DNA of 23,257 bases from a virus, in the IMG/VR virus record IMGVR_UViG_3300030102_002336, positions 373 to 23,629 of that record. The stretch is one strand, 5' to 3'. Positions 1,916 through 21,718 of the stretch are shown here, piece after piece. The notes under the pieces are model-generated. The model made no database searches and was not told the DNA's origin. It saw nothing but the letters and a program-made list of their open reading frames with translations. Made by a program: the position numbers and the translations under genes. Numbering within the stretch: position 1 is the stretch's first letter; every line of letters begins with the position of its first letter.

Positions 1916-1944
1916 ATTATAACATAATGTATACATTTATGCAA
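1916..1944 (-). promoter_or_regulatory. sigma-70-type promoter with palindrome in spacer
   Basis: On the minus strand: TTGCAT (1944-1939), 17-base spacer, perfect TATAAT (1921-1916). The spacer holds the 12-bp palindrome AATGTATACATT (1926-1937). A second TGTATA box lies at 1948-1953, roughly 20 bp from the first. It would drive the CxxC-protein gene with a leader of about 50 bases. The boxes match the arms of the inverted repeat at 2714-2743, so both sites may be bound by the same regulator. Confidence 0.7.
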
Positions 1945-1964: not shown

Positions 1965-2678
1965 TTAGAAAAGGTCTTGATACAGGTTTAAAATGCGGTC
2001 TTTGTTGCATAACCAAAAGACTAATAAATATCTGTCACCAGATCCCACCGGCAAGCCTTTATGTAAATGCGTAAAGCTAGGAAATATTAAAGCGTGTCCG
2101 GTTGGCAAAGGTTTGATGGCCCCATGATTATGGAACTCAGTTCCGCCGCCCTCATAGTCTCCGGTGTTTAAAGGAACCACCACACTAATATCTGCGCTTT
2201 CGTCGTGGTGCCAGGCTCCCTGCTTTTTATCTTTTAAGTTGTAGTTAGCAATCTGTATACTTGCTGGATCTCCACAGCTCCTTTGCCAGATTGCCATAAA
2301 GATAGGATTCAATACTGTTTGAGTTACGAACCACATGTTTCGGTAAAGCTCGGGACAATGTTCTTTTAAAACAATTTCTGGTATCTGTCGCAACTTATCT
2401 TCATCGGAGTTTCCCTCAAAACCTATTTCTTTTTTCATGCTGTCAATCTCTTTAATTAATAGCTTACAAAATTGTCTGCGAAACAATGGGATCTTATAAA
2501 CTTCTGGATATATTTTTTTGGCCATAGCATGAACTGGTGTCTTTGCCATTTTTTTTGTTCCACCATCGGCATGGTACTTGGCCACTATAGGTATTGTTTG
2601 TTGAACCGCATCATAAGTCGCTTGGTTTATCATCCAGTGAGATTGCATGCTAAGTAGGTAGTTTTTAAGCTGATACAT
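1965..2678 (-). CDS. prolyl 4-hydroxylase-like 2OG-Fe(II) oxygenase
   Basis: A 237-residue dioxygenase with an intact active-site set: H157-x-D159 in HHDES, H206 in the H-K-G-L-P-V segment, and R216 in GDRY. The segment GGGTEFHNHG, then PTGHALIFPS, is characteristic of the P4H-like double-stranded beta-helix, in which Fe(II) is held by H/D/H and 2-oxoglutarate by the Arg. Substrate unknown; phage members are thought to modify proteins or nucleic acid bases. It appears distinct from the oxygenase at the left edge, with a different motif layout. No SD sequence precedes the ATG. It is divergent from the ribbon-helix-helix gene and may be transcribed from the symmetric promoter/operator at 2714-2743. 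Confidence 0.8.
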   Translation of the reverse strand: MYQLKNYLLSMQSHWMINQATYDAVQQTIPIVAKYHADGGTKKMAKTPVHAMAKKIYPEVYKIPLFRRQFCKLLIKEIDSMKKEIGFEGNSDEDKLRQIPEIVLKEHCPELYRNMWFVTQTVLNPIFMAIWQRSCGDPASIQIANYNLKDKKQGAWHHDESADISVVVPLNTGDYEGGGTEFHNHGAIKPLPTGHALIFPSFTHLHKGLPVGSGDRYLLVFWLCNKDRILNLYQDLF

Positions 2679-2713
2679 TGTAAATTATTTTATCATACAT
2701 TTTTTAATATTTA

Positions 2714-2743
2714 ATTGTATATTTGTGCAAAAGCGTATACAAT
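2714..2743. promoter_or_regulatory. symmetric operator / candidate bidirectional promoter
   Basis: A perfect inverted repeat, ATTGTATA (2714-2721) and TATACAAT (2736-2743), with a 14-base gap. Because of the symmetry each strand reads TTGTAT, 17 bases, TACAAT, a fair -35/-10 pair in both directions; the -35 of one overlaps the -10 of the other. Rightward it serves the ribbon-helix-helix gene, leftward the oxygenase. The layout suits autoregulation by the adjacent DNA-binding protein. The -35 match is modest (3 of 6), so promoter activity is inferred; the repeat itself is directly visible. Confidence 0.6.
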
Positions 2744-2749
2744 CCCCCC

Positions 2750-2947
2750 ATGGAACAAGATATTAAAAACAATAAAACCAGGAAAAGTTTAGCAGTTGAT
2801 GTGTCAACATACGATCTTTTGCAAGCAATTTGCGATATGGAAAGAAGATCTAAAATTGACCAGCTCAAAGTTCTGATCGAAAACGAGTATGTAAGGTTGA
2901 AAAAACATGAGGCTCTTTTTGAAGAAGAACACAGAGACGTTGTTTAA
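2750..2947 (+). CDS. ribbon-helix-helix (CopG/Arc-type) regulator
   Basis: A 65-residue protein whose core fits a ribbon-helix-helix DNA-binding domain. There is a short strand (KSLAVDV, about residues 11-17), helix 1 (STYDLLQAICDMERR) and helix 2 (SKIDQLKVLIENEYVRL), preceded by a basic N-terminal arm (KNNKTRK). Such proteins bind as dimers and insert the paired strands into the major groove of inverted repeats. ATG 2750 is preferred over a TTG at 2723 in the same frame because that codon lies inside the operator/promoter. Only CCCCCC separates the predicted -10 from the ATG, so the transcript would be leaderless and has no SD. Likely a repressor of itself and of the divergent oxygenase gene. 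Confidence 0.7.
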   Translation: MEQDIKNNKTRKSLAVDVSTYDLLQAICDMERRSKIDQLKVLIENEYVRLKKHEALFEEEHRDVV

Positions 2948-2953
2948 ACTCTA

Positions 2954-3187
2954 ATGTTTAAAAACATTATGGCTAAAAAAAACACGCCACAGTCTTATAA
3001 ACCAGTGCTTGAGGCCCCGGAAGTTATAGAGCTGTTTAGTCGATTGACGCTACATCAACAAACAGCGTTACTGAGGTTAATATCTCGTAACTTAGAAATT
3101 AAATTAAACGGGCAATCTCACATGGGTTATGAGTTAGACTATGAAGTAGTTGGTGCCATGATCCAGGCAACAGAGTCACAAGATTAG
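2954..3187 (+). CDS. hypothetical small protein
   Basis: A 77-residue protein of no recognised family. The middle (EAPEVIELFSRLTLHQQTALLRLISRN) looks helical, and no signal peptide or membrane segment is seen. It follows the regulator gene by six bases and ends at a terminator, so the two probably form a bicistronic unit. There is no SD at ATG 2954. That ATG lies in the first arm of an inverted repeat (AATGTTT, two bases, AAACATT, 2953-2968), and a second in-frame ATG at 2969 follows the repeat directly and could be the real start (MAKKNTPQ...). Confidence 0.6.
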   Translation: MFKNIMAKKNTPQSYKPVLEAPEVIELFSRLTLHQQTALLRLISRNLEIKLNGQSHMGYELDYEVVGAMIQATESQD

Positions 3188-21119: not shown

Positions 21120-21305
21120 GTTTTCAACAAAATTTTTGGACATTTTCCACTCTTCCAAGTTTGACTTTGGATCACCACTTTCCCAAGCGATTTGGGTAGT
21201 TGGACTTTCGTCTAACCACCTGGCAATCGTCTCTGGTGATACGCCAAGTTTTTTTGCATAGGCCATATACCATTTGTAAGTATTAATCATTTCATAGTCA
21301 TACAT
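21105..21305 (-). CDS. small island protein with possible helix-turn-helix
   Basis: A 66-residue protein: an aromatic N-terminus (YDYEMINTYKWYMAYAKK), then LGVSPETIARWLDESPTTQIAW, which could form a helix-turn-helix (L-G-V-S-P-E-T-I-A-R-W-L), and a charged C-terminus ending in Asn-Lys-Glu-Val-Ala. The helix-turn-helix reading is tentative, as many small phage proteins carry look-alikes. ATG 21305 overlaps the previous stop (TGATG); the in-frame GTG one codon upstream is less likely. Confidence 0.6.
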   Translation of the reverse strand: MYDYEMINTYKWYMAYAKKLGVSPETIARWLDESPTTQIAWESGDPKSNLEEWKMSKNFVENKEVA

Positions 21306-21319
21306 CACGCCATCTCCTT
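21303..21319 (-). repeat. island junction repeat (copy 1, variant)
   Basis: Minus strand AAGGAGATGGCGTGATG, joining the first two island genes. It differs from copies 3 and 4 at two positions within the SD part. Confidence 0.8.
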
Positions 21320-21607
21320 ATTTAAATCTACCCACTTAACAACCCACAACCACTGATCTTTACCGTCTGGAGTGTCATAGCCTTTCATCATGTCGTATTT
21401 GTAAATGACATCTTTTTCAATCAAGCTACCCACGGTTCCCTCGGCCTCTTTTTGAGTCCAACCTTTTTTAGTAAGAACTTCTATAATCTCGTTTATCCAG
21501 CCATATTCAAACCACTCGCTGGTGTCATCGCTCTCACAAAAATCACTACCCTCAACATACTCGTTGAAAAGTTTGATTGCTTTTACTTGGTTTTCTGTAT
21601 ATTCCAT
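21305..21607 (-). CDS. first gene of small-gene island, unknown function
   Basis: A 100-residue acidic protein: EYTENQVKAIKLFNEYVEGSDFCESDDT, then EYGWINEIIEVLTKKGWTQKEAEGTVGSLIEKDVIYKYD, which looks like a small winged-helix-type fold (helix, helix, GWTQKEAEGT turn, LIEKDVI), ending with DQWLWVVKWVDLNKEMA. ATG 21607 is chosen because AGGAGG lies five bases upstream; the open frame reaches further back without support. It is driven by the promoter candidate at 21656-21684. Possibly a regulator or host-directed protein; no family recognised. Confidence 0.65.
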   Translation of the reverse strand: MEYTENQVKAIKLFNEYVEGSDFCESDDTSEWFEYGWINEIIEVLTKKGWTQKEAEGTVGSLIEKDVIYKYDMMKGYDTPDGKDQWLWVVKWVDLNKEMA

Positions 21608-21655
21608 AGTGCCTCCTGGCTTTTTTTTGTTTTTAATTTCATTTCCCACATAACT

Positions 21656-21684
21656 AATATACTAAATTATGCACATATTTGCAA
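21656..21684 (-). promoter_or_regulatory. candidate sigma-70-type promoter of the small-gene island
   Basis: On the minus strand: TTGCAA (21684-21679), 17 bases, TATATT (21661-21656), about 50 bases before the first island gene. A TGTATA box lies five bases upstream of the -35 (21695-21690 on the minus strand). The same TGTATA-N5-TTGCA arrangement is seen on the minus strand at the left-arm operator (2741-2725 region). It sits just after a terminator, as expected for a new transcription start. Confidence 0.5.
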
Positions 21685-21718
21685 GTTTTTATACACATTA
21701 TTTTAATTAATTTAGGCC

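Follow-up and report, generated by a model that had tools for sequence, protein, structure and literature searches.

The 71-bp gap (2679-2749) between a leftward oxygenase-like gene (ATG at 2678) and a rightward 65-codon ORF (ATG at 2750) in the genome of an uncultivated marine phage is probably a compact divergent control region, in which two promoters are combined with a TTGYA/TGCA site bound by a regulator. Rightward, a host sigma-70-type promoter TTGTAT-N17-TACAAT would begin the joint mRNA of the regulator and the gene p77 no more than one base away from the regulator's ATG. In the leftward direction, the oxygenase would be transcribed from an extended -10 element, TGATAAAAT, that has no recognisable -35, and its mRNA would begin at most about 2 nt from the ATG. 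The regulator would occupy the TTGYA/TGCA element at 2714-2731, and the likeliest binder is the 65-residue protein, in the role of an Arc-like autorepressor. In that position the protein would block its own promoter; as it would also cover roughly positions -35 to -52 of the leftward promoter in a fixed helical phase, it could set transcription of the oxygenase as well, upwards or downwards. Comparison of sequences establishes the two promoters, their short distances to the start codons, the constant 22-nt spacing and the recurrence of the spacer element; the start sites, the identity of the binder and the direction of the leftward effect are inferred. The same element at other promoters of the phage would extend this control to a small regulon.

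Genomic Context and Relatives

The window, i.e., the whole stretch of DNA analyzed (23,257 nt), runs from base 373 to base 23629 of a viral record of 46,385 bp. Coordinates refer to the window unless they are preceded by an L-number, which designates a relative locus; querying viral contigs with the 65-residue protein yielded a first set of 80 such loci, and further searches added more. The features are compiled in Table 1.

Table 1. Features of the divergent control region and of related promoters in the window.
Feature	Position	Strand	Remarks
108-aa gene promoter TTGCAT-N17-TATAAT	1916..1944	-	L099 relative has TGCA at the same spacer place
2OG-Fe(II) oxygenase-like gene	1965..2678	-	ATG 2678, no SD; phrog_61, E 2.4e-29
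Leftward extended -10 TGATAAAAT	2687..2695	-	8 nt upstream of oxygenase ATG; start expected near 2680
Interval between leftward -10 and rightward -35	2693..2714	.	22 nt; length invariant, sequence not
Palindrome, left arm ATTGTATA	2714..2721	.	holds rightward -35
Candidate operator ATTGTA-N6-TGCAAA (family TTTGYA-N6-TRCAAA)	2714..2731	+	overlaps -35 and spacer; includes TGCA 2726-2729
Rightward -35 TTGTAT (family TTGYAN)	2715..2720	+	160/162 relatives
Palindrome, right arm TATACAAT	2736..2743	.	holds rightward -10; drifts to TATAAAAT/TATAGAAT in relatives
Rightward -10 TACAAT (family TANAAT)	2738..2743	+	6 nt before ATG
Small regulator-like gene, 65 aa	2750..2947	+	putative Arc-like ribbon-helix-helix; predicted leaderless
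p77	2954..3187	+	directly 3' of regulator; adjoins it in nearly all loci
Small-gene operon promoter TTGCAAATATGTGCATAATTTAGTATATT	21656..21684	-	same architecture, TGCA at spacer 6-9; 18.2 bits

A module of exonuclease, oxygenase (leftward), regulator and p77 (rightward) is retained in most relatives. In some, the regulator-p77 pair persists and is preceded by different genes or by a gap. No relatives of the regulator or of p77 were found in named phages, and among species genomes a single contig, from a Maricaulis MAG, carried one. The protein p77, which shows 47-100% identity among the relatives, had no match in Pfam, PHROGs or named phages. Judged by the terminase, the nearest named phages are the Pelagibacter phages HTVC027P and HTVC023P and the phage 023Pt_psg01 (58-62% identity), which does not fix the host. 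We found no study of transcription control in this phage group in the literature; the region described here provides a testable layout for a widespread group of uncultivated marine phages, comprising two promoters, a candidate regulator, a candidate operator and a number of target promoters.

The Rightward Promoter and the Start of the Regulator Gene

The first-pass annotation had placed a rightward promoter over 2715-2743, and this assignment is borne out by the relatives. In 160 of 162 loci, TTGYA(N)-N17-TANAAT-like elements precede the regulator gene; they align without gaps, with a 17-nt spacer, and fall into 28 clusters when loci differing at more than 2 of 29 letters are separated. Each of the 42 loci that could be read in an additional search has the same promoter (five clusters, mostly of the L109/L160 clade). 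A strict sigma-70 scan did not list the site because TTGTAT shares only three of six letters with the -35 consensus.

The ATG of the 65-codon ORF was confirmed at 2750, six bases past the -10 and without a Shine-Dalgarno (SD) sequence. An SD was present at 12 of the 27 starts examined in the window and absent before both 2750 and 2678. Since transcription is expected to start 6-7 nt after a -10, the +1 would fall on or beside the A of the ATG. The proposal of a leaderless or nearly leaderless mRNA gains support from the -10-to-ATG distances in the relatives: in 15 of the 28 clusters an in-frame ATG follows 6-9 nt past the -10, and for this reason the regulator mRNA is very likely leaderless, as far as can be predicted from sequence. 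The remaining 13 clusters have a longer leader, with an SD before the ATG in five of them. The regulator family would hold natural switches between a leaderless start and an SD-bearing leader at one conserved promoter, which makes it useful for asking why leaderless phage regulators are so frequent. Promoter and predicted leaderless start together are the strongest part of the case made by the first-pass annotation.

The Oxygenase Promoter and Its Distance to the Rightward Promoter

The profile match to phrog_61 (2OG-Fe(II) oxygenase; Table 1) assigns the leftward gene to this family; a Pfam OGFOD2-like match (E 1.9e-5) stayed under the cut-off of that profile. The gene is divergent from and adjacent to the regulator in most relatives. 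TGNTANNHT occurs 6-8 nt before its ATG in 27 of 42 distinct upstream sequences, compared with 0.5% in shuffles, and on account of this short distance the oxygenase mRNA is predicted to be probably leaderless as well. The conserved form in relatives with an adjacent divergent oxygenase is TGN-TAWAMT (TGATAAAAT in the window, TGTTATAAT in L165, TGCTATAAT in L166 and TGATATACT in L161), and the element varies at letters where a -10 may vary. No -35-like hexamer was recognisable at the usual distance. Coding sequence was rejected as an explanation for the conservation upstream of the oxygenase, because the reading frames there are broken, shifted or stopped in several loci belonging to several clades. 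TATACA-N18-TATGAT, considered as the leftward promoter for a time, was replaced, the aligned -10 in further clades clearly being TGNTATACT or TGNTATAAT.

The leftward promoter had been described as the mirror image of the palindrome. This was not upheld: the mirrored -10 TACAAT (2719-2714) becomes TACAAA in most relatives and the -35 is lost, so the mirrored pair is not conserved where the genes diverge; the extended -10 at 2695-2687 is kept instead. The L021/L026 group has a different leftward element, assigned tentatively, and its two promoters seem to overlap.

From the leftward -10 to the rightward -35 the distance is exactly 22 nt in 17 of 17 clusters, which are mutually related and were found by a pattern that needed both elements and left the spacing free. 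The interval itself has diverged in sequence, and neither ATG stays at a fixed distance, the differences amounting to 1-2 nt or more. Measured from the predicted leftward start, the centre of the site 2714-2731 lies about 43 bp upstream. Many regulators act from about -43 on promoters with a poor -35, as lambda CI does at PRM. The claim that one site controls both genes is retained in part: a shared control site is probable and the divergent oxygenase has been kept adjacent in most relatives, but this site is not the palindromic dyad. A bolder version, which we regard as rather doubtful, would have the Arc-like protein, made from its leaderless mRNA, repress its own promoter and, bound near -43, activate the leaderless oxygenase promoter that lacks a -35; in sisters of the L021/L026 type, with their overlapping promoters, the same site would shut both.

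A Candidate Operator within the Rightward Promoter

The best-scoring family-wide dyad centre is TTTGYA-N6-TRCAAA (column-permutation P 0.022, the letters of the -35 being included). At spacer positions 6-9, TGCA is conserved with column values of 0.79 for T, 0.64 for G, 0.82 for C and 0.96 for A; TCCA, TGTA, TATA and TGCT take its place in some clusters. A strict TGCA as an invariant failed in several clusters of the further clade and can be upheld as a preference only. No covariation between the TTGYA and TRCA halves was seen by eye in the promoter table of the relatives. On this comparison, TTGYA together with TGCA at its fixed place in the spacer is the best candidate for the operator, in place of the dyad reported before.

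The element recurs in at least two further promoters of the phage. Among its eight TTGYAN-N17-TANAHT sites, three have TGCA at exactly spacer positions 6-9. When the phage's own genome was rescanned with the promoter matrix, 29.9 bits were obtained at the regulator, 28.1 at a second leaderless-looking gene and 18.2 at a small-gene operon (shuffled windows give 0-2 hits above 9 bits). The second of these sites, GTTGTAATTTTGTGCACTTTTTTGTAAAAT, stands 7 nt before another ATG (L088:7741) of the same phage. The promoter of the small-gene operon, in the 21300-21700 region of the window, stays in place in relatives although the first downstream gene differs (compare L180 and L175). Across 21 phage records, TTGYA-N6-TGCA-N8-TANAHT with at most one mismatch has 38 matches, many of them the regulator promoters that defined the pattern, vs one for the reversed pattern. 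The simplest reading of this recurrence is a small regulon that shares the element.

Two observations belong to these sites. The second leaderless-looking gene (L088:7742-8023, record 42641-42922) encodes 81 aa beginning with MEVLDTLYFSWERSPAV, is preceded, 7 nt from its ATG, by a promoter of the same architecture, lies on the strand opposite to the 3' end of a 593-codon ORF and has a homologue with the same promoter in L182. Between two small-gene operons, a divergent AT-rich region (L088:10994-11134, record 45893-46033) with several TTGCA/TGCA elements reaches 20.5 and 16.0 bits when scored with the matrix of the regulator promoter and is probably another early control region.

The same letters could also reflect promoters without any operator. 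The symmetry would then follow from the combination of TTGTA as -35 with TACAA as -10, and the spacer TGCA would be a preference of the host's promoters. Since TACAA reads TTGTA on the opposite strand, part of the symmetry is inherent in the two elements, and the spacer TGCA is degenerate in some clusters. We nevertheless consider this account unlikely in view of the exact placement of TGCA in three of the eight sites and of the fixed 22-nt spacing.

The Putative Regulator

The motif RKSLA[VIL]D, which would form the strand of the fold, is common to all members of the regulator family and precedes two helical segments. The ribbon-helix-helix label given to the protein is plausible, and weak matches to phrog_3180 (Arc-like repressor; 18 of 32 members, best E 0.002) speak for it. 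On the other side, no Pfam profile exceeded its threshold among the members (RHH_1 reached E 0.085 in one of them, below the cut-off), hhalign gave a probability of 0.2% against P22 Arc/Mnt, and Foldseek returned no structural match to the regulator models. AlphaFold monomers were of low confidence: that of L160 has an extended segment, a helix at 22-34, a turn and a helix at 38-62 (pLDDT 70), which may agree with the strand-helix-turn-helix order of ribbon-helix-helix proteins, and that of the protein in the window is a single long helix. The assignment as a ribbon-helix-helix protein, Arc-like at best, is plausible and weak.

We infer the 65-residue protein as the candidate binder of 2714-2731. 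The element might instead be a true operator for another protein, either a host regulator or a complex that includes p77, and the weakly supported DNA-binding fold and the strict linkage of p77 to the regulator are in line with this. It seems improbable to us, since the element is conserved before this very gene family across diverged phages, as autoregulation predicts.

The Inverted Repeat

The inverted repeat ATTGTATA-N14-TATACAAT described initially does exist at 2714-2743, its arms being 100% complementary and 14 nt apart, and it yields TTGTAT-N17-TACAAT on both strands at these coordinates. On its own the palindrome is unremarkable and carries little weight because such repeats also arise in shuffled DNA: 14 perfect 8-bp inverted repeats with gaps of 4-20 nt are present in the window, for which dinucleotide shuffling yields 8.7 +/- 4.0, and when the 71-bp gap is shuffled in this way, one appears in 8.7% of cases.

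Both arms are perfect in the window and in L001-L012 only. In L013-L017 the right arm is changed to TATAAAAT or TATAAACT, and elsewhere three to six of the eight arm pairs match, two to three of these being owed to the -35/-10 consensus. The right arm amounts to the -10 and drifts as -10 elements do; what is conserved in addition is the TGCA of the spacer. With its symmetry gone outside the window and L001-L012, the palindrome was rejected as the best reading of a conserved operator. It is very unlikely that the dyad acts as operator and, within the same 30 bp, as a symmetric back-to-back promoter for the two genes: the perfect symmetry and the mirrored leftward promoter of the window's clade agree with it, but relatives that still have the divergent oxygenase have lost the mirrored -10/-35 and retained the extended -10 closer to that gene, and the symmetry may be due to chance, given its frequency in shuffles.

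A different palindrome, ATTCTATAGAAT, stands perfect or near-perfect at the -10 of L021, L026, L032 and L038. Some of these loci have an in-frame upstream ATG 7 nt past the -10 that would lengthen the regulator. L038 has this ATG in another frame, from which a short leader peptide would be made, its stop overlapping the regulator's ATG.

Comparison with Other Control Regions

The layout can be regarded as an unusually tidy case of an already known type of phage control region, because it finds parallels in phage PY54, in P22 and in RelB. In lambda, cI transcribed from PRM gives a leaderless repressor mRNA, and the regulator occupies a site near -42 at a promoter whose -35 is poor. The region described here resembles this arrangement in the predicted leaderless regulator mRNA and in the candidate site near -43 of a -35-poor promoter, and differs in that the regulator protein is unrelated. 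Leaderless lambda cI is also mentioned in the study of PY54 in which the cI and cro mRNAs were both mapped by RACE to begin at the AUG (PMC4488713). Two neighbouring promoters with leaderless mRNAs, here predicted, are common to both phages, whereas PY54 has the repressors CI and Cro and a separate operator and our region has an oxygenase as one of the two genes and a regulator that is Arc-like at best.

The ribbon-helix-helix protein RelB of Escherichia coli reads [A/T]TGT[A/C]A hexads on one face of the DNA over the relBE promoter (PMC2812701). These hexads resemble the TTGYA...TGYA found here; the relBE operator, in contrast, consists of four adjoining hexads without spacing, and no toxin has been shown for our locus. 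In the immI region of P22 (mnt/arc-ant, NC_002371), divergent promoters overlap and the 21-bp operator of Arc lies between the -35 and -10 of its own promoter. Shared with P22 arc are a small putative ribbon-helix-helix regulator, a candidate operator in the spacer region of the regulator's own promoter and the divergent promoters. Unlike our genes, which are predicted to be leaderless, P22 arc and mnt have leaders, the letters of the operators differ and no protein profile similarity was detectable. A separate observation, which bears on the phage being possibly temperate, is that L088:9517-10332 encodes a serine recombinase of 271 aa (Pfam Resolvase, E 3.2e-26).
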